Origin: Candidatus Saccharimonadota bacterium
GTDB taxonomy: Bacteria > Patescibacteriota > Saccharimonadia > Saccharimonadales > OFTM59
Assembly: GCA_029260855.1 (NCBI GenBank)
Contig: JAJDCK010000015.1
Coordinates: 1 to 32,750 of the forward strand
Length of the DNA: 32,750 nucleotides
Direction of reading: 5' to 3'
A program made the position numbers and the translations under genes. The notes beneath the pieces are model-generated. The model was not told the DNA's origin. It saw only the letters and a program-made list of their open reading frames with translations, and made no database searches. This document shows positions 2,103-12,057 of this stretch, in pieces (the first letter of the stretch is position 1; each line of letters starts with the position of its first letter).

Positions 2103-2732
2103 TCAATCAAGACCATATTGTTCTTCTGTGGTTTGCATATCTGACAAGTCGTTAACAAAACGATGGTATTCTGCCTTGCTAGAAAATTGATTTTCTAAAA
2201 ATTGTGGAGCCAACCATTTAGGGTATAGTGGTGCAAAGTAATACTGAAGGCTTGAGTAGCGATATGTATAAACATCAAGCCCGAGATCCATAGGGTTACA
2301 GTGAATATAGCGTGACAAATGGGTGCTATATGTATCCGAATCTACCAGTATCGCCTTGAATCGTCCCTGGAATACTGGTCCAACACGATCATACTTGCGG
2401 TTAAAATACATTCCATAACTGGTGCAAAGTGTTCTCATGAATTCGGTAATCGCAGTTTGGTCCGTTTGCCAGAGCATCAGATGAAAATGGTTTGGCATTA
2501 AACAAAACGCCACTAAGCGAACCCTCCCGGAGTAATTACCGATTCGTATCCGTTGCTTATTGTGTTGTGATTGCGCTGCCTCTCGTTCGGCTAACAACAT
2601 TAACTCCAGCCTTCTCATGAAGGCTGTATAGTCCTGTTCATCCAGGAAAATAGGAGCTTTGCCAACCCCACGATTATAAACATGGTACAAGCCCTCTTCC
2701 TGAAACTGTTTAACAGAATTACGGCTAGGCAT
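2103..2732 (-). CDS. REP-associated tyrosine transposase (IS200-like, Y1 family)
   Basis: This is a single-strand DNA transposase/nuclease of the HUH superfamily, here 209 residues from the internal ATG. It has the opening YHVYNRGVGK, the HUH pair in CLMPNHFHLML, and the segment SYGMYFNRKYDRVGPVFQGR, which carries the probable catalytic Tyr, followed by SRYIHCNP. These are the landmarks of the TnpA_REP branch. I chose the ATG at MPSRNSVKQF because the longer track start (2771) lies within the right repeat arm and related proteins begin this way. The gene is intact, so the enzyme may be active. It cuts and joins REP hairpins in known families; the flanking arms are its likely substrate. No accessory TnpB is present. 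Confidence 0.9.
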   Translation of the reverse strand: MPSRNSVKQFQEEGLYHVYNRGVGKAPIFLDEQDYTAFMRRLELMLLAEREAAQSQHNKQRIRIGNYSGRVRLVAFCLMPNHFHLMLWQTDQTAITEFMRTLCTSYGMYFNRKYDRVGPVFQGRFKAILVDSDTYSTHLSRYIHCNPMDLGLDVYTYRYSSLQYYFAPLYPKWLAPQFLENQFSSKAEYHRFVNDLSDMQTTEEQYGLD

Positions 2733-2745
2733 AAGCTCATTATAC

Positions 2746-2767
2746 ATGTCAGGGTCCGTCCTTGACA
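2746..2767 (-). repeat. Right REP-like arm (22-bp perfect inverted repeat)
   Basis: ATGTCAGGGTCCGTCCTTGA (plus CA) mirrors the left arm exactly. It lies inside the upstream in-frame extension of the transposase ORF, so the track residues LSRTDPDM are repeat sequence and probably not translated. Confidence 0.85.
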
Positions 2768-2781
2768 ACATAGTGGGGTAC

Positions 2782-5700
2782 TTATTGGGTGGGCTCTAGA
2801 GCGATCCAGTCTATTGTGGTGTCTGATGGCTGGGCTGTCTGGAGCTGGATCTTGAAACTGGTTTCAGTCTTTTCTACCACTTTTATGAGCACGAAGCCGT
2901 CTGCACTGGCTGTGAGCTTAGGTATGCGCTGGTAAGCATTCTCAAAGCTGTACATGGCCTCTGTCTGCCCTGCAGGAACAACCAAGGTGCCGCTAGTGTC
3001 TTTACCGACCGTCAAGTGCCCACTTATAGTTATTTTGGCCGTCGTAATACCTTCTACAACTTCTAGAACGCCATTTACGGTGGCACTACCAGTAACATTC
3101 AGACTACTCGTGGTTATGGCACCTGTCACATTTAGGTTCGCTAAGTTAGATTGACCGAGGACATCAAGAGACTGAAAACTGCCCTGCAATATGCCGTTCT
3201 CATCAGCAGGCTCATACCAGCCTGGGTTAACCAACATCATGATTTTGTCCTCGCCAGAACCCGGAACCCAACTTTCCAGTGCTCGACCTATAACCATGCC
3301 TGCGCGGTCAGCTTTCATTGCGCGACCGCTTACATAAGATGTCGTAAGCATATCGCCTGGGTATATTGCTGGGGAGTCTGCGGCTATTTTGACGGGTACA
3401 TGCCCTAGCATTCCCACATTTGCAAAATTAGGGTCATTATGACGATCATCGTCTGGATTATTATTACCGGTACCGCGCTCAGTTATGACACCCACAGTCC
3501 TGGAGTCATAGGGCCTACTGCCACGAACCACCTGGCCTGTGTTGTGTGCCGGGCTTGTCCCGTCGGCCACCACCATAACATCGCCGGCCACGCCCTGCCC
3601 AACTTTATAGAAGTATTCCGAATAGTCTGCTGTATCATTATCGGATTCCCAGCGGAAGGTATCTCCTCCAGAACGTAGCCATATCCGGCCGTCCGTACTG
3701 GACAGCCCAACCCTACCAAAGATAAGCTCACCTTCTTGCGTGGCTGTGGGAGCGGATGTTTCTGTGTTAACCACAAGGCGACCGTCCGCCCTAACCAAAA
3801 ACTTTGAGGAAAAAGATCCACCCACATCACTCAACAGTGCAAGTAAGTAGTTGGTGGGCGTGGTTGTTGTATCCCATACCGCCAGCTTTGCATTCGCTAC
3901 GGTAAACCCATTTATGTTATTTGCACCTATAGACACATTGCCGTTTGCCGCTAATCTCATCCTGGTCCTCAAAGTCCCTCCGGCATCTGCGGTCTGCAGG
4001 AACATAGCGGTTGAGTAATCATTGTTCGTGGAATTTTCCTTATAGCTGTTCAGCTGTGCCGTTGTGCCATATGTGCCAGAAGAGTTTATTTTGGCACGTA
4101 AGTTGATGGCAGCACCAACGCCAGTTGCCATAGTTGTAGGATCAGATATGACTAAGCGGCCCGACGATACCGCCCCTGTCGCCTCACCCACAAAAACCCT
4201 GTTATTGGTTGTGTCTACAGAGAACATTGATACGCTGCTTGCGCTCTGAACATCCAAGGCAGCAGTAGACGTAGACTTAAACAACCCGTTACCCGCAACC
4301 TCAAATTTGGCAGTTGTAGGCACTACGCCAAGTCCTAGGTTACCGGCACTATCCAGCACCGCCCTGTCGGTGTTGTTGGTCATAAATATCAGGCTGTGGT
4401 TACTGGCGGTACCTATCCACCCGCCCGTTAGACTCGAGGCTGTTCCATTAAATATATTGGTAGTGACCGTGCCGTCAAAAGTGTTGAGAGCAACGGTGCT
4501 TGCCGTAGTCTCTATTGAAAGTTTCGCAGCAGGAGTAGCTGTACCTATTCCTACGTTGCCGCCCGAAAACACAGCGGCGTAGTTATTGCTGGAACCTGTT
4601 TGAGCATTAACATATAGCCCGTAAGCATTCTCGCTGCCCGCTAAACCTTGGTTATCAATGCGTATACCGTAATTATTTTGCGTACCAGCTCCAGGTGATC
4701 CATTCAATGGGCGAACAAATATGCCGATTGTTTCCTGGGTCCCGCCTGCTCCTGCCGCATTGACCGTTCCCTGCAAATCAAGACCAATTAGCTGTGTTGC
4801 AGTAGCGCCTACGTTATCGCTAATATTCGTATAGTTCAGGTACTGCAATGCTGCGCCCGTGTTATCTGGCACATCTATTGTCGCCATGAATCGCCCCGTA
4901 CCAGCCACATCCAAAGTCGTCAAAGGCGTACTTGTGCCAATTCCAACACGTGCGTTTAAGAAGTTAATTTCGTCAATCGCTTGATCATCAAACTCTATTC
5001 TACCCGCAGTAGTTAACCCAGAACAGTCGTTGGTCAGCCCAAAACACTGATCGTCAGCCGTCAACCCAGCAAAGGCTGCGCCAGACGTAAAAGAACCGAC
5101 GGCAGTAATTGACCCGCCGCTGTTATTATCTGCGCTGCACGCCCAGACATCTGTGGTCTCGTTCCATTTTAAAATGTCATTATTCGCACAACCCTGTAAG
5201 AGTGTGATGCCACTAGACAAAACCTCGAGACCAGAACCAGACGAAGTGGTTGCTGATAACGCATCTGTTGATGCAGCAGCTTGAACCGTCAAAGCGTTAG
5301 TGCTAATAGTCAGGCCGTTGCCGGTCAGGTCGTTGAAGGACTGGCTGGCCACCACCAGGTTGGTTAGCGTAGCGGTAGTAAAGGTCGGTGTACTGGTAGT
5401 GGTCAGGTGCTGGCCGGTATTAAAGGCCAGCTGAGTGTCGCCAATGGAGTCATTAGCGATGGAGACGGCGCCAGCCGTGACCGTGAAGAAGCTGCTACTG
5501 AAGCTAGCAATACCCTTGGCGCCGGTGGAAGCGTCATCTATGGTGATGGTGTCGGCGGCAGTAACTGAGGCGTTGCTAATAGTGATGGCTGGGCCAGCTT
5601 CGCCGTTTATGGACGTAATGCCCGGGCTACTGCCCAGACCGCCCTCACAGTCGTCCCAAAACAGTGTGCCGGTGCCGTTCTGAGCCTTTAGACACTGGTT

Positions 5701-7671
5701 AGTGACGCCAACGGCAGTTGGCAGGGTCAAGGTGTAAGAGCTACTGACGTTAGGCGTGGTAATGGTGACCGTTTCACTGCCCACGCCGTCGTTGTCGTGG
5801 AGGACGAGGGAGCCGGTGTTGGCAGTACTACCTAAGGTGGCTGTGCCACCTTGAACAATAACGTTAGAAGCGAAGGTCTTGTCGCCACCAAAGCTCTGGG
5901 CCCCGTTAGTGACGACGCCAGCTGTGGTGGCGGAAGCGGCGCCAATGGTCAGACCGATGGTGTCCGGGTTAACAGCCGTTAGGCTCCAGGTGACTGACGG
6001 TACGGTGGCGGAAGCGGCGTTGTTAATAAAGTTAGCGTTAGTGGCCGGGCTGCCGTTAACGTAGACATCGTCACCAGTACCGGAAGCGCCGGCATCAGCC
6101 GCACAAGCCCACTGGCTGCCAGTGGTGTTGTACTTCAGTACCTGGCCGTCAGCACAATCAATCAGGGAGAGGCCGTTACCGTCAACTTCCAAGCCTTTGT
6201 TAGCCTGTACGCTAACCGCTACATTATCCGGATTAACCGTAATACCGTCTCCTGCCCCTATATTAAGAGTCGTACTACCCCCTAAAGAAACACTACCGCC
6301 ATCCACCAGCCCTCCACCGGCAGCGACACTTAGAGAGCTGTTGGTGAGGTCAATGTTGGCAATTGAGCCGTCAACGACTTTTGACGAGTTAACACTGTCA
6401 GCTTCCAGTTCGCTGAGACCGATAGTCTGACCGAGAAGCGAGACATTTGTGCTTAGGCGTAGATCACTAAGTGTACCGCTAGAGACGCTGCTTGCATTTA
6501 ATGCTGTTAAATTCACACCACTTCCACTGAAACTGCTGGCTGTGACGCTGCCGCCGACAGTTATAACTGTTCCCGATTCTGTAATTATAGAGCTAACTAT
6601 GTTTTGCGATGCATCGAACTTCGCTATTGATCCGATGGCCCCCGACCCGGTGATAGAGCTCCCCGCAGCGCCGTCATCATCAGCGCACACCACCTGCCCA
6701 GAGCCATTAGTGGTCAATGTCCCTCCGTTAGCCATCCCCGTACAATTTAGTGACGACAAAATCAAACCATTGAAAGTAGGGCTTGAGCCAGTATTGATAT
6801 CCTGCGGTGTTGCAAGAGTAAACGTATTGCCAGAAGCATTGACGGTAATCTGATTAGGCGTGCCTTGTACGCTAAGCGTAACAACACCACTCGCACCATT
6901 GAGTGTTGTGACGCGAGGGCTGCCCGCTGCCGTATCAGTAATAGTTAAATTACCGTCGCCATCGTCAATTATATTTAAATTAGAGCTTCCGGCTGTTAGG
7001 CTTGCTACGGTTTCATCCCCACTTACTGGTATCAACTGTCTTAACTGATTAAGCTGTACTAGGGTTGCAAATTGGGCTAGATCGCTTTGCGAAGCAAAGT
7101 TACAGTTATTGCTATCTAGGCAGAATGCGCCGGAAGCATTGGGTAGCTTATAGTTCTGACTGGCCACCAGTTCACTAGATTCAATCGTAGCCATGAATGC
7201 ATTTTTTGATAGCTTCAAAATCCCCCGAGATATAATGTCGCCGTTGATCAACAGAGAGTGTTTTTGTGCACCGACAAGCTCAGGAGCTTGCGATACGCTG
7301 TCAATTTGACTTAACTCAACCTCTTGAACAGGGACAGAATTATTAACAGCTGGGCTGGGAGCATCTTTTTTCTGCCGATTAAGTACCGTTATGGAAACAC
7401 CGGACAGAAGAACTACAATAAGTGCAATAACCGCTGAAACGAGTATGGCCTTATGCCGGGAGAACTTAAAAGCATGTGGAGGACTTAGAGCCTCGCTGGA
7501 TTTCTGGCTGTTAGTGTCAAACCCCGGCTCATGGACCTCTAGGTTTTCTGCAACATAATTTGATGGAGCTGAGGCATAACTAGCTACAGGTACAGCATTG
7601 GCAGTACTTTCTAGGCTATCAGATTGATAAGTCTGTAGCGAGTCAGTCGATTGATACCGACTATCTTCCAT
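2782..7671 (-). CDS. Giant membrane-anchored fibre/adhesin-like protein
   Basis: This 1629-residue protein is probably a cell-surface fibre. It has a polar N-terminal tail of about 73 residues without a signal peptide, one transmembrane helix (about 74-97, AILVSAVIALIVVLLSGVSI), then about 1500 residues rich in Ser, Thr, Gly, Asn and Val. The shaft carries repeats such as VGIGTSTPLTTLDVAG and VGIGTATPAAKLSI, as in S74-type fibres. Several modules carry paired cysteines (WACAAD, WACSAD, QCLKAQ...WDDC). Near residues 1340-1480 is a domain running GDVMVVADG ... VGVI ... VPVKI ... GDMLTTS ... AMKAD ... VIGRALE, which also occurs in the 277-aa neighbour. Repeated hydrophobic motifs and a short beta domain end the protein; I see no S74 intramolecular chaperone. 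TATAAA lies 5 nt before the ATG. A role in attachment to a host cell is inferred from lineage lifestyle. Confidence 0.9.
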   Translation of the reverse strand: MEDSRYQSTDSLQTYQSDSLESTANAVPVASYASAPSNYVAENLEVHEPGFDTNSQKSSEALSPPHAFKFSRHKAILVSAVIALIVVLLSGVSITVLNRQKKDAPSPAVNNSVPVQEVELSQIDSVSQAPELVGAQKHSLLINGDIISRGILKLSKNAFMATIESSELVASQNYKLPNASGAFCLDSNNCNFASQSDLAQFATLVQLNQLRQLIPVSGDETVASLTAGSSNLNIIDDGDGNLTITDTAAGSPRVTTLNGASGVVTLSVQGTPNQITVNASGNTFTLATPQDINTGSSPTFNGLILSSLNCTGMANGGTLTTNGSGQVVCADDDGAAGSSITGSGAIGSIAKFDASQNIVSSIITESGTVITVGGSVTASSFSGSGVNLTALNASSVSSGTLSDLRLSTNVSLLGQTIGLSELEADSVNSSKVVDGSIANIDLTNSSLSVAAGGGLVDGGSVSLGGSTTLNIGAGDGITVNPDNVAVSVQANKGLEVDGNGLSLIDCADGQVLKYNTTGSQWACAADAGASGTGDDVYVNGSPATNANFINNAASATVPSVTWSLTAVNPDTIGLTIGAASATTAGVVTNGAQSFGGDKTFASNVIVQGGTATLGSTANTGSLVLHDNDGVGSETVTITTPNVSSSYTLTLPTAVGVTNQCLKAQNGTGTLFWDDCEGGLGSSPGITSINGEAGPAITISNASVTAADTITIDDASTGAKGIASFSSSFFTVTAGAVSIANDSIGDTQLAFNTGQHLTTTSTPTFTTATLTNLVVASQSFNDLTGNGLTISTNALTVQAAASTDALSATTSSGSGLEVLSSGITLLQGCANNDILKWNETTDVWACSADNNSGGSITAVGSFTSGAAFAGLTADDQCFGLTNDCSGLTTAGRIEFDDQAIDEINFLNARVGIGTSTPLTTLDVAGTGRFMATIDVPDNTGAALQYLNYTNISDNVGATATQLIGLDLQGTVNAAGAGGTQETIGIFVRPLNGSPGAGTQNNYGIRIDNQGLAGSENAYGLYVNAQTGSSNNYAAVFSGGNVGIGTATPAAKLSIETTASTVALNTFDGTVTTNIFNGTASSLTGGWIGTASNHSLIFMTNNTDRAVLDSAGNLGLGVVPTTAKFEVAGNGLFKSTSTAALDVQSASSVSMFSVDTTNNRVFVGEATGAVSSGRLVISDPTTMATGVGAAINLRAKINSSGTYGTTAQLNSYKENSTNNDYSTAMFLQTADAGGTLRTRMRLAANGNVSIGANNINGFTVANAKLAVWDTTTTPTNYLLALLSDVGGSFSSKFLVRADGRLVVNTETSAPTATQEGELIFGRVGLSSTDGRIWLRSGGDTFRWESDNDTADYSEYFYKVGQGVAGDVMVVADGTSPAHNTGQVVRGSRPYDSRTVGVITERGTGNNNPDDDRHNDPNFANVGMLGHVPVKIAADSPAIYPGDMLTTSYVSGRAMKADRAGMVIGRALESWVPGSGEDKIMMLVNPGWYEPADENGILQGSFQSLDVLGQSNLANLNVTGAITTSSLNVTGSATVNGVLEVVEGITTAKITISGHLTVGKDTSGTLVVPAGQTEAMYSFENAYQRIPKLTASADGFVLIKVVEKTETSFKIQLQTAQPSDTTIDWIALEPTQ

Positions 7672-7813
7672 AAGTTTTTATATTGGTTTGTTTTTTATTT
7701 GGGTGCACTTTTGAATAAAGTGTTTATGCAACTTTGGCTGCATAGTCCAACTGTTGTTTGGCTAGACTATCCCACAACAACTATAAACAGAAGCTATAAG
7801 GTGCGCAAGTATT
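7672..7813. other. Short spacer upstream of the giant fibre gene
   Basis: This 142-bp A/T-rich gap separates the 277-aa membrane protein from the fibre gene. TATAAA sits just before the fibre ATG and may be its -10 box; no good -35 and no terminator hairpin were seen. Confidence 0.4.
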
Positions 7814-8647
7814 TTATACCCAGAGCACTGCATATATCGCCGCCACACCCAAGGCAAGTACTGCCATTGCGATAAATAAAACCCTGATCAGTTCGCGCCT
7901 TATTATGTTTTTAGCTAAGGGGTTGCGCCCCAGTGAGCTGATTGCGCTGGAAATAGCACCGTATAAAATCGTACCCTCGGCAACAAGCACGATGAAGAAA
8001 ATAATTAGCGCAATTATCATTTGTATTTCTCCAACATCTTTACCTATCAGTGCGCGTCCAATATCGGTCAGCATAGACTTTTCCTTCAATGAATCCAGGT
8101 TAGCGTAAGCCTTTCGGTCTAGATTGACGCGTAGCCTTTGAATGAGAACATTTTTAGTACCTGCTCCATCTTGAATTATGTAGGTTTCCGATTTATCAGA
8201 TGCAAAATCTTCAAGAGCAATAGCTACTATAGGTTGCGAAGAAGAAGCTTTTGCCAGTATGCCTTTTATGGGCGATAAGGTTAACAGGTCACCGTACCTG
8301 ATCTCGCCATTAAGGTTAACCACAAATGCACCCACCTCTCCGTCGCTTTCTACATAAGATGCTTGCTCACCAGATGATATCGTAACCAAGCTTTCATCAA
8401 TTGTTGTAGCTACACCTATAACGCGTTCTATTTGATCCACAGAGGCCGCTTCTACTTTAGGGTCCTCTGGAGTACTGCTCTGGCTAAGTGCTACCACCAT
8501 GCCAGGCTTAAGTCGCGTATCGTCTGTACCATAGCCCCGTGTTATTGCAGCTAGTGTAGGTACGCTGCAAAAAATAAATATTATCCCCGCGAGCAAGCCG
8601 GTAACTATGGAGAATTTATCGTCTAGATATTTATATAATTTGAGCAT
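7814..8647 (-). CDS. Membrane protein: fibre-type beta domain plus c-subunit-like transmembrane hairpin
   Basis: The product has 277 residues. An N-terminal hydrophobic segment (IVTGLLAGIIFIFCSVPTLAA) looks like a signal peptide or anchor. The external part (about 45-170) has the order GMVVALS ... RVIGVATT ... VGAFVVNLNGEI ... GDLLTLS ... ILAKA ... IVAIALEDF. This matches, element by element, the C-terminal region of the giant fibre protein encoded next. The C-terminus holds two helices, IIALIIFFIVLVAEGTILYG and LFIAMAVLALGVAAIYAVLW, joined by SSLGRNPLAKNIIRR. That loop resembles the polar loop of F-type ATP synthase subunit c, but the second helix lacks the ion-binding carboxylate. It is therefore not a working AtpE. 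It may be a membrane partner or base for the fibre; the function is unknown. Confidence 0.85.
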   Translation of the reverse strand: MLKLYKYLDDKFSIVTGLLAGIIFIFCSVPTLAAITRGYGTDDTRLKPGMVVALSQSSTPEDPKVEAASVDQIERVIGVATTIDESLVTISSGEQASYVESDGEVGAFVVNLNGEIRYGDLLTLSPIKGILAKASSSQPIVAIALEDFASDKSETYIIQDGAGTKNVLIQRLRVNLDRKAYANLDSLKEKSMLTDIGRALIGKDVGEIQMIIALIIFFIVLVAEGTILYGAISSAISSLGRNPLAKNIIRRELIRVLFIAMAVLALGVAAIYAVLWV

Positions 8648-8739
8648 GACTTGACTTCTAGTCTAGTATGCATTGCTAACAACATATTCACAATAGACAT
8701 GAGTATCGTGTGATAGATGCAGGTTGACAGTTATTGATA

Positions 8740-9048
8740 CTAGGCTATTTTGCTTATCTTCAATACTGCATGTCGCTGGCGATGACCGCGGACAGTATGA
8801 ACACGCTTTTTTGCTTTATAACGTATTGAGGTGACTTTATCGGCCTTTACATCAGCTTCAATAATGTCAGCAGTTACCTTGATACCGCCAACCTCAGGGT
8901 TGCCAACAGTAGTTTTCTCACCATCAATTAGTAAAAGTGGCGCAAAATTAATGTTTTTATCCACACCATCTAATAGTTCAACATTAACTGTTTCGCCTTC
9001 AGCGACCAAATACTGCTTACCACCGGTTGCAATGACTGCTTTTTTCAT
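8740..9048 (-). CDS. rplU: Large ribosomal subunit protein bL21
   Basis: This 102-residue protein of normal family length starts MKKAVIATGGKQYLV and contains the conserved C-terminal stretch KAKKRVHTVRGHRQRHAVLKI that contacts 23S rRNA. L21 is usually followed by rpmA (L27); here the next gene on the strand is a membrane protein and no L27 is seen in the window. A weak AAGG lies about 12 nt before the ATG. Confidence 0.95.
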   Translation of the reverse strand: MKKAVIATGGKQYLVAEGETVNVELLDGVDKNINFAPLLLIDGEKTTVGNPEVGGIKVTADIIEADVKADKVTSIRYKAKKRVHTVRGHRQRHAVLKISKIA

Positions 9049-9117
9049 AAGATTCTTGCCTTTTTTGAAAGAGTTACCGAGAGAGTCTAACAGAGAAAGC
9101 TATGCATGTCAAAAGTG

Positions 9118-12057
9118 TTAATCAGCTTTTTTCAGCTTAACCACCAGCTGCACACCCCCTATGTTGACCACCGCTTCATAGCCCGCCAGCCCCTCGTCAG
9201 TAATTGAATTCGCTAGGGTTTCCTGACCTATGGTCTCGGCGAACTCCTGAATAGCGTGATTTAGCTCTACATCGGCGGTGCTAAGCGAAAGAGATATACG
9301 ATCCTCTACCTGAAGATCTGCGTGCTTGCGAGCGTTTTGTACCTGGCGGACCACCTCTCGCATCAAACCTTCGCGTTTCAGCTCTGGTGTAATGTTTTTG
9401 TCTACCGATACCCTTTGTAAACTCTTACTGTCGGGCTCTTCATTTACAACCTGTTTGACGTTTACTTCTTCGGCGATCGTAAGTTCCAGTTCTTTACGAA
9501 GCGGCAAACCCGTGTAACTCAACATGCTTAGAGGTTGACGAACTTTTATCTGTTGCTGTCCATCTCCTGAAAGCATTCGCTGAGCCAGACCTTGTTCTAC
9601 TATCTGACGCGTACGTGTCATTTCCTCAAGTATTACAGGGTCAACCTGGGCATTTTGAGGCCAGCCACTCAGGTGGACCGAGGATGGTAAATCCGTCTCT
9701 TTAATCAGTTGTCGCCAGAGGTAGTCGGACAAGAAAGGGGCCCAAGGGGCTAGAAGCTGGGTGACGCGCACCAATGTAAACCACAGCGTTTCGTAGGCGA
9801 ATTGCTTGTCGGTATCGTCTTCGCTTTTCCAGAAACGTCGCCTGGATCTGCGAATAAACCAATTAGACATGTCGTCAATAAGCAAGAATATTGGATTAAT
9901 CGCATGTGCCAATTTATAGTTGTCGGCTTGCTTTGTAACTTCGGCGATAGTCTCATTCAGACGCGACAGCATCCACTGATCAAGCACGTTGGTAGTGTTA
10001 GGTTGAATTCCTGGAGCGGCTGGCTTCCAGTTATCCAGTTGAGCATACATATCAAAGAATCGGAATGAATTCATGAGCGTGCCCAACACATTACGGTTCA
10101 GGTCCTTCATCGCGTCGCGGCTAAAACGCATGTAATCCGCATTGACCGCTTGGTTATTACTAAGCAGATAAAGCCTCAATGTGTCAGCTCCCTCTTGTGC
10201 GAACACCTCGTCAACTGGCGGGTAATTCTTCAATCTTTTTGACAACTTCTGGCCATCAGCTGCCATTATCATTCCATTCACTAACACTTGTTTATAGGCT
10301 GGGCTATCAAATAGGATGGTAGAAATTACATGCAGAACATAGAACCATTGGCTGGTCTGATCCAAGCCCTCACCAATATAATCAGCAGGAAAAGTCATTT
10401 CAAATTTTTCTTTGTTCTCAAGAGGATAGTGTTGTTGGGCTACTGGCATACTACCTGACTCAACCCAGCAGTCCAGAACCTCCGCTGTCCTGCGATAAGT
10501 TTTGCCATCCTTGCTGATAACCACGTCATCGATGAATGGACGATGAAGATCATCAAGTTTCACATCTGAACCAGCTAATTCACGTAATTTCGCAGTACTC
10601 TCAACAACGATGTAGTCATTTTCATCTTCAATATTCACCCAAATAGGCATAGGGGCACCCCAGTAACGATTACGGGATATAGCCCAGTCGCGCGCGCCTT
10701 CAAGCCACTTGCCAAATCTTCCGTCCTTGATATGCTCTGGTGTCCAGTTAATCTGTTGTGCTGAACGCAACAAGTCATCTTTTATGGCGGATACTCGTAT
10801 AAACCAGGTTGAAACAGCGTAGTATAAAAGGGGCGTTTCGCAACGGTAGCAGAACGGATATGTATGTTCTATGGTTTCAGCTGCAAATACGGCTCCTTTT
10901 TCCATCAGATCAGCGATAATTATCTTGTCCGCACCTTTAAAGAACTTCCCTTCAGCCTTTTGAAATCCTATATCGCTGATAACCTTACCTGAGTTGTCTA
11001 TAGTCACCAGGGTGGGTATAGCATTCTGGTGCGCCAGCTTAAGATCTTCTTCTCCGAATGCCGGAGCTATATGCAAGACCCCGGTTCCCTCATCTGTGCT
11101 CACGGTTTCTGCGGACCAAACTTTATAGAGATTACCTAGAGCCGGAGCCAAACGGCTTGCGACCCCCGGGAAAAGCGGTTCATAAACTTTGCCGACTAAA
11201 TCCAACCCCTTAACTTCCCTAACTACTTTATAGTTCACTTCGTCTTTGAATACACTTTCTAGCCTTTTTTTTGCGATTATCAGAGTTTCCTCACTTTTGT
11301 GTTCATTTTCCACGGTCACATATACATATAACTCCTTTGGCTTGACACCAATGGCAGCGTTGCCGGGCAAGCTCCACGGAGTAGTAGTCCAAGCCAGCAA
11401 AGAGGCGTCTTCGTCGGTAAGCTTGAACTTCACATACAAGCTAGGATCGGGGACGTTATCACGGTAGCCTTCATTGACCTCAAAATTAGATAAGGGGGTC
11501 TCGCAGCGAGGACAATATGGCATGCTTTTGTAGCCCCTGTATAGAAGCCCCTTATCGTTGACCTGTTTCAGAACCCACCACACACTTTCGGTATATTCAG
11601 AATCAACTGTCGCATAGGCGTTAACGGTATCTGTCCACCTCCCAACACGCTCAAAAAACTGCTCCCACTCAGCTTTGTACATAAAAATGGAGTCGTGGCA
11701 GGCTGCGTTGAATTTCTCTAGACCGAGCTCAAGTATCTGTTTCTTGCCACTTACTCCTAGCTGCTTCTCAATAGCAAACTCAACCGGCAACCCATGACAG
11801 TCCCAGCCGTTACGCCGTTCCACGTAATAACCCTGCATGGTTTTGTAGCGACCCAAACTGTCTTTGATGCTTGTTACAAGAGAATGACCGAAGTGAGGCA
11901 GCCCATTTGCAAACGGAGGCCCGTCGTAGAAGTTAAATACTTTGCCGGTTTGCTTAGTCTTTTCTAGCGATTTCTGAAATGTTTTCTCAGAACGCCATAT
12001 CTCAAGCATGTGTTCTTCTATTTGTGCTAGGTTAGATTTCTGACTTGTGTCAGCCAT
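9118..12057 (-). CDS. ileS: Isoleucyl-tRNA synthetase, type 2 (eukaryote-like)
   Basis: This class I synthetase charges tRNA-Ile in the cytoplasm. It is 979 residues, full length. The HIGH motif appears as GLPHFGHSL (about residue 55) and the KMSKS loop as QKLSKRLKNYP (about 605). Zinc-knuckle-like pairs occur in CPRCETPL and CYRCETPL, and the editing domain (TTPWSLPGNAAIGV) is present. The KxSKRLKNYP form places it with the IleS2 branch, whose members are typically poorly inhibited by mupirocin; that property is from family knowledge, not shown here. Translation starts at an ATG 7 nt after a perfect AAGGAGG. A leader of about 180 nt with a T-box motif and terminator precedes it. Confidence 0.97.
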   Translation of the reverse strand: MADTSQKSNLAQIEEHMLEIWRSEKTFQKSLEKTKQTGKVFNFYDGPPFANGLPHFGHSLVTSIKDSLGRYKTMQGYYVERRNGWDCHGLPVEFAIEKQLGVSGKKQILELGLEKFNAACHDSIFMYKAEWEQFFERVGRWTDTVNAYATVDSEYTESVWWVLKQVNDKGLLYRGYKSMPYCPRCETPLSNFEVNEGYRDNVPDPSLYVKFKLTDEDASLLAWTTTPWSLPGNAAIGVKPKELYVYVTVENEHKSEETLIIAKKRLESVFKDEVNYKVVREVKGLDLVGKVYEPLFPGVASRLAPALGNLYKVWSAETVSTDEGTGVLHIAPAFGEEDLKLAHQNAIPTLVTIDNSGKVISDIGFQKAEGKFFKGADKIIIADLMEKGAVFAAETIEHTYPFCYRCETPLLYYAVSTWFIRVSAIKDDLLRSAQQINWTPEHIKDGRFGKWLEGARDWAISRNRYWGAPMPIWVNIEDENDYIVVESTAKLRELAGSDVKLDDLHRPFIDDVVISKDGKTYRRTAEVLDCWVESGSMPVAQQHYPLENKEKFEMTFPADYIGEGLDQTSQWFYVLHVISTILFDSPAYKQVLVNGMIMAADGQKLSKRLKNYPPVDEVFAQEGADTLRLYLLSNNQAVNADYMRFSRDAMKDLNRNVLGTLMNSFRFFDMYAQLDNWKPAAPGIQPNTTNVLDQWMLSRLNETIAEVTKQADNYKLAHAINPIFLLIDDMSNWFIRRSRRRFWKSEDDTDKQFAYETLWFTLVRVTQLLAPWAPFLSDYLWRQLIKETDLPSSVHLSGWPQNAQVDPVILEEMTRTRQIVEQGLAQRMLSGDGQQQIKVRQPLSMLSYTGLPLRKELELTIAEEVNVKQVVNEEPDSKSLQRVSVDKNITPELKREGLMREVVRQVQNARKHADLQVEDRISLSLSTADVELNHAIQEFAETIGQETLANSITDEGLAGYEAVVNIGGVQLVVKLKKAD

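Follow-up and report, generated by a model that had tools for sequence, protein, structure and literature searches.

Within a stretch of 32,750 nucleotides from a Candidatus Saccharimonadota bacterium (hereafter the window, which is contig C7 of a 790-kb genome that is 97.7% complete), the gene whose open reading frame (ORF) spans exactly positions 7814-8647 of the minus strand encodes a protein of 277 amino acids (aa) with an external beta domain and a C-terminal hairpin that resembles subunit c of F-type ATP synthase. We consider it probable that this protein, a divergent paralogue of subunit c, is a membrane rotor subunit of a second F1-like ATPase that is specific to the Candidate Phyla Radiation (CPR), has no ion path and turns or cranks structures on the cell surface. 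The initial annotation of the window had described a dead c-like hairpin used as a passive base for a surface fibre. The likeness to subunit c and the loss of the acid from helix 2 stand, but the protein is better seen as a driven rotor than as an inert support, because the wider family supplies the c-like subunit of an F1-like ATPase that looks catalytically intact; the finding thus probably goes beyond a dead hairpin under a fibre, to a rotor-type subunit of a widespread enzyme. The parts of the protein, all on the minus strand, are as follows:

7814..8647, minus strand: candidate c-like rotor protein, the focus of this study; ORF of 277 aa; AlphaFold2 (AF2) model with a mean predicted local distance difference test (pLDDT) of 87, built with 49 homologues
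8567..8638, minus strand: N-terminal export helix, residues 4-27, a probable signal peptide or anchor (AF2 helix; hydropathy peaks)
8120..8545, minus strand: external beta domain, residues 35-176 (AF2 strands; Foldseek)
7820..8029, minus strand: subunit-c-like transmembrane hairpin, residues 207-276 (AF2 helices 207-241 and 243-276; Foldseek; profile evidence)
7919..7930, minus strand: GRNP polar loop, residues 240-243, invariant across the 49 homologues
7976..7978, minus strand: Glu224 in helix 1, at the position of Ala24 in E. coli subunit c (scoring of c-like proteins)

Homology of the hairpin to subunit c

At the level of the family, this hairpin is confirmed as a homologue of subunit c, with a resemblance beyond chance. 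The initial annotation had likened the C-terminal two-helix unit and its loop, SSLGRNPLAKNIIRR, to subunit c, and this was borne out by profile similarity to ATP-synt_C. The predicted structure agrees: in the AF2 monomer, two transmembrane helices joined by a polar RNP-type loop are packed as in subunit c, and the modelled hairpin superposes on known c subunits with a root-mean-square deviation of 1.3-1.7 A and a TMt of 0.83-0.90 (Foldseek). When a profile of 20 hairpin sequences was compared with the PDB, the best match was the ATP synthase subunit c of Chloroflexus (E 0.008), and the runner-up was a potassium channel at E 0.34. In 287 genomes of the phylum the same profile ranks members of the family first and true c subunits next, and outside the main family at least 64 of the 80 matches overlap matches to PF00137.

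An unrelated membrane hairpin that by chance came to bear a GRNP loop could in principle account for the likeness. The focus protein scanned alone has no Pfam match at E <= 10, and so lies below the curated cut-off of PF00137; Pfam and NCBIfam scans of it together returned nothing meaningful, a match to peptidase-T at 17 bits being noise. The first profile-profile comparison, restricted to Saccharimonadales members, also spanned only the 15 columns of the loop. The wider CPR set lengthened this match, and the members from outside the Saccharimonadales align with canonical c over 54 columns (score 36.3, probability 93%; 33.7 for all members), far above the controls (at most 14.9 in 30 column shuffles, 7.9 for the reversed alignment). 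Some relatives that fill the same slot in the family reach curated models of subunit c: two proteins with immunoglobulin-like (Ig-like) external parts pass the 24-bit cut-off of PF00137, one of 668 aa (L156, 30.7 bits) next to a delta-like gene at a contig end and one of 664 aa (L166, 27.7 bits) within a full F1-like operon, and a protein with the same architecture as the focus (L136) matches the NCBIfam subunit c at 2.5e-4. The genes of the family, moreover, usually sit where subunit c belongs in an F1 operon. Because of these intermediate sequences convergence is largely refuted, and we give it next to no chance.

Loss of the helix-2 carboxylate and the position of Glu224

The loop is retained throughout the family. 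GRNP is invariant in 49 Saccharimonadales homologues with identities to the focus down to 22%, and across the CPR the 84 c-like proteins that were scored carry either GRNP (79) or SRNP (5), the same two forms found in 31 canonical c subunits (29 and 2). The carboxylate follows the opposite pattern. In the 31 canonical c subunits from the same order, an acid is always present in helix 2 and never in helix 1, whereas an acid at the canonical depth of helix 2 was found in 0 of the 84 c-like proteins; four of them have a Glu close to the cytoplasmic end of this helix. The family otherwise shares with F-type subunit c (PF00137) the two-helix hairpin, the cytoplasmic (G)RNP loop and an operon in the company of b-like, delta, alpha, gamma, beta and epsilon genes. 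It differs in that an export helix and a large external domain precede the hairpin, that the operon offers no subunit a as a partner, and that the proteins are 250-2,589 aa long as opposed to about 80. By its carboxylate and its curated score, the focus protein is not a member of subunit c proper. As a separate observation, one c-like protein (L164, G165:C62:3291-4088), on a short contig without F1 genes, has a degenerate loop, GSNP in place of GRNP.

The carboxylate had been reported missing from the focus hairpin; this is correct for helix 2, which has neither Asp nor Glu, but Glu224 in helix 1 was overlooked. This residue lies exactly 17 positions ahead of the loop Arg, at the place of E. 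coli Ala24, and a Glu at this place occurs in 8 c-like proteins, all of them encoded by stand-alone genes away from F1 genes, and in none of the others scored. One may imagine that Glu224 replaces the helix-2 carboxylate in stand-alone copies, and that their ring works with the canonical subunit a, either turning the fibre by a flow of protons or pumping protons at the expense of ATP. The exact coincidence with Ala24 argues for such ion coupling. The A24D/D61G double mutant of E. coli subunit c retains H+ transport, the function having been transferred to position 24. In the c-ring of F. nucleatum a helix-1 Glu contributes to ion binding, together with the helix-2 Glu, and the engineered Ala24Asp of E. 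coli c is likewise known in combination with a helix-2 acid (PMC3692424). All seven related genomes with the Glu-bearing stand-alone type encode canonical subunit a, but 52 of the 61 related genomes do so anyway, and thus its presence says little. Against ion coupling, no such acid is present in operon-type members or in those from outside the Saccharimonadales, three stand-alone copies (L008, L089, L100) are also without it, and the system is present in four genomes without subunit a. These four (G024, G025, G033 and G044, 95-99% complete) encode a c-like protein and one F1-like gamma and neither canonical a nor canonical c, which indicates that the machine needs no ion channel of a known kind. 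We regard the ion-coupled variant as very unlikely.

The F1-like operon

The c-like family is spread across the CPR. In the Saccharimonadales most copies follow the gene order NifS-like, c-like, b-like, delta-like, alpha, gamma, beta, epsilon, and in other CPR classes nearly all of the c-like genes examined lie in the same type of operon; a c-like gene together with alpha, gamma and beta was found at 62 of 74 named loci (GTDB genomes). Alpha, gamma, beta and epsilon were identified by Pfam and NCBIfam models, all with scores under the equivalog cut-offs. For the delta-like protein, the top 44 PDB matches of the model come without exception from ATP synthase entries (OSCP/delta type), and one version, at L155, passes the PF00213 cut-off. 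The F1-like operons contain no subunit a gene, and in the focus genome a canonical F1Fo set, including a and c, is encoded separately. The F1-like beta proteins form one clade separate from canonical beta (support 98/86). Walker A is kept in 65 of 65 beta-like proteins, the catalytic GER motif in 62 of 65, and the Arg finger in 53 of 62 alpha-like proteins. The operon encodes a second F1-like ATPase, which by these motifs looks catalytically intact.

In one CPR family (L132, L133, L134 and L146) two different c-like genes flank a single F1-like operon, and several exported proteins are encoded between or beside them.

Co-occurrence with F1-like gamma and the stand-alone copies

Among 61 related genomes, 41 encode both a c-like protein and an F1-like gamma, 2 gamma only (one of which is interrupted by the end of a contig), none a c-like protein only, and 18 neither (Fisher 1.4e-13). 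Two pairs of genomes, G015/G043 and G023/G047, each differ within one genus in the c-like gene and the F1-like gamma together. In five genomes (G002, G008, G018, G042 and G050) the F1-like operon reads NifS, b, delta, alpha, with no c-like gene at the usual place, and their single c-like gene is a stand-alone one beside rplU or a large surface-protein gene. The focus copy is of this stand-alone type. Its genome also carries an operon copy (L063), and hence probably uses two kinds of c-like subunit. In the complete Saccharibacteria genome CP025011.1 (L257) a stand-alone copy adjoins an ORF of 2,292 aa, and the stretch covered there contains no F1 gene nearby.

These distributions bear on whether the c-like protein moves at all. 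A fixed ring or cluster of c-like subunits could tether the external domain or the fibre, with the ATP used by the F1-like head serving, for example, assembly or export. Such a static anchor would agree with the loss of the carboxylate and with the location of stand-alone copies, which adjoin fibre genes at a distance from F1 genes. It agrees less well with the most conserved feature of the family, the cytoplasmic loop that in true c docks F1, with the absence of any c-like gene without F1-like gamma in the 61 genomes, and with the retention of stator-type b-like and delta-like subunits, best understood if there is a rotor that moves. A static anchor is in our judgment unlikely.

External domains and adjacent fibres

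Two features of the gene directly beside the focus, also on the minus strand, are relevant here:

2782..7671, minus strand: giant fibre of 1629 aa with a cytoplasmic N-terminus, one transmembrane helix and a long external part (ORF)
3271..3540, minus strand: copy of the external beta domain in the fibre, residues 1378-1467 (hidden Markov model (HMM) E 4.4e-7; hhalign probability 96%)

The beta domain had been said to recur in this giant fibre. The copy is indeed present, missed under default HMM filters and detected at full sensitivity, but among the large adjacent fibres tested the domain was found only in those of the focus genome and of its co-binned relative. The suggested pairing with fibre genes is in turn conserved: a fibre gene of the same clusters lies near 15 of 17 stand-alone loci (at 14 immediately adjacent), and a fibre-like gene, mostly smaller and usually just past epsilon, is close to 21 of 24 operon loci. 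Giant proteins (1,000-2,800 aa) are also frequent neighbours of the c-like gene in other classes. The external part itself varies. One genome (G067) encodes an NHL-propeller protein of 2,589 aa with the c hairpin at its end, and another (G078) an NHL protein with the c hairpin inside an F1-like operon; together with the Ig-like forms, these indicate that the external part is exchangeable while the hairpin is kept.

Separately, proteins of ~800-2,800 aa adjoin the c-like operon at seven loci (L136, L140, L135, L141, L142, L161 and L163) and start with a MerR-type helix-turn-helix-like stretch, an odd, DNA-binding-type beginning; in two of them (L136 and L140) the ends examined also resemble fibre repeats.

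A proposed mechanism

From the layout of the focus protein, N-terminal export would leave the beta domain outside the cell and keep the GRNP loop cytoplasmic, a topology as in subunit c. We propose that several c-like copies form a ring whose cytoplasmic GRNP loops would rest on gamma and epsilon, at the foot of the F1-like head. The head, held by b and delta, would hydrolyse ATP, and gamma and epsilon would turn the c-like ring. Since the helix-2 carboxylate is lost and the operon lacks subunit a, hydrolysis would turn the ring without moving ions, and since each ring subunit bears an external domain, the motor may turn or crank a surface crown of beta domains. This crown probably engages the fibre next door, which carries the same beta domain in this genome, and the motor may serve in surface movement or in attachment to a host.

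Several observations weigh against a rotor. The structure models are of monomers, and the counts of co-occurrence with their Fisher value are not corrected for phylogeny. The b-like protein has the position of b, one transmembrane helix and a long helical part, but no Pfam match. One genome rated 100% complete has a complete F1-like operon and no detectable c-like gene (L180, G030:C9). Near the focus copy there is no F1 gene, and it is tied to the motor through other genomes; the operon copy L063 could be the main rotor subunit in this genome. Finally, in the stand-alone type Glu224 could still allow ions to bind.

Comparison with known systems

CPR operons and F1Fo ATP synthase have alpha, beta, gamma, epsilon and delta in common, but the former are without the a subunit, i.e. 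the ion channel. The closest precedent is the F1-like-X0 ATPases of Mycoplasma, of which Type 2 drives gliding in M. mobile and Type 3 is needed for MIB-MIP function (PMC3369863, PMC11864180, PMC12994834). These too are second alpha/beta/gamma/epsilon clusters beside a genuine F1Fo, thought to drive a surface machine, and the proteins MMCAP2_0577 and MMOB1650 are laid out like the c-like proteins, with a signal peptide, a large domain and two C-terminal transmembrane helices. However, no recognised subunit c homologue has been reported for the Mycoplasma enzymes, their b and delta are not separate, and they have a protein with 12 transmembrane helices, while none lies between the genes of the CPR operons that were laid out. 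The CPR alpha and beta proteins also stay far below the NCBIfam cut-offs of MSC_0618/0619 and MMOB1660/1670 (360 vs 570, 251 vs 520, 319 vs 600 and 346 vs 850 bits). By these cut-offs and by composition, the CPR system is not a member of the Mycoplasma families.

The N-ATPase, or alternate F1F0 ATPase, is likewise a second F-type gene set beside the canonical one, but it pumps ions and has subunit a and a carboxylate-bearing c, and the CPR proteins fall well below the alt_F1F0 cut-offs (TIGR03305, 373.5 vs 752; TIGR03324, 324.6 vs 750.5). The 20 candidate 'non-catalytic' F/N-ATPases of ProAD have a c without Glu/Asp; the survey required subunits a and c, whereas the CPR operons lack a, and an external domain is not described in the passages covered (PMC11738941). 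Within the part of the openly licensed literature that was covered, we recognised no description of the CPR c-like/F1-like system.

To our knowledge, the known rotary ATPases turn a membrane ring to move ions, and here a relative of the c-ring appears to have dropped ion transport for a surface load. The CPR, one of the largest and least understood groups of bacteria, is made up of organisms that live attached to other cells. A motor dedicated to the surface would offer a testable explanation of how they move on, probe or hold a host. The system also bears on why Saccharibacteria retain ATP-synthase-like genes. A transposon sequencing (Tn-seq) study found their predicted F-type ATP synthase to be dispensable and asked why it is retained (PMC10633639). 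In Mycoplasma gliding, where a link from F1 to the outside is missing, a c-like rotor is a candidate for it. More tentatively, and at somewhat less than even odds, we suggest that the CPR broadly possesses a rotary motor that runs on ATP and has no ion path. Its rotor would derive from a c-ring and bear surface domains or fibres, and hydrolysis of ATP in the cytoplasm would in this way directly turn structures on the surface. The gliding and MIB-MIP motors of Mycoplasma may be of the same kind, with a c-like rotor that has gone unrecognised.

Gene neighbourhood and origin

The beta domain of the focus resembles phage capsid decoration and head-fibre proteins (Foldseek E about 1e-3 to 3e-2, TMt up to 0.58). 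Despite this likeness in fold, a phage origin of the focus is unsupported, as no relative was found on the viral contigs searched. A scan of positions 2600-9300 of the window for promoters and terminators gave hits at chance level only. On the side opposite to the 1629-aa fibre gene, the focus is flanked by one further conserved gene, given for context:

8740..9048, minus strand: rplU-like gene (ribosomal protein L21, named from its sequence), the conserved upstream neighbour (cluster 14)

This rplU-like cluster was found at 9 loci, every one of them with a stand-alone c-like gene. A second collinear copy of the region, ftsA-ftsZ-nrdR-ileS-rplU-c-like-fibre, is present in the same assembly with 79-95% protein identity (L062, G000:C14:8401-24858) and probably stems from a co-binned relative, and thus the three c-like copies of the genome may be two. 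Directly downstream of the giant fibre, positions 2103-2771 of the window (minus strand) encode a REP-associated, IS200-like tyrosine transposase, a relative of which (cluster 23) adjoins the stand-alone locus L073.
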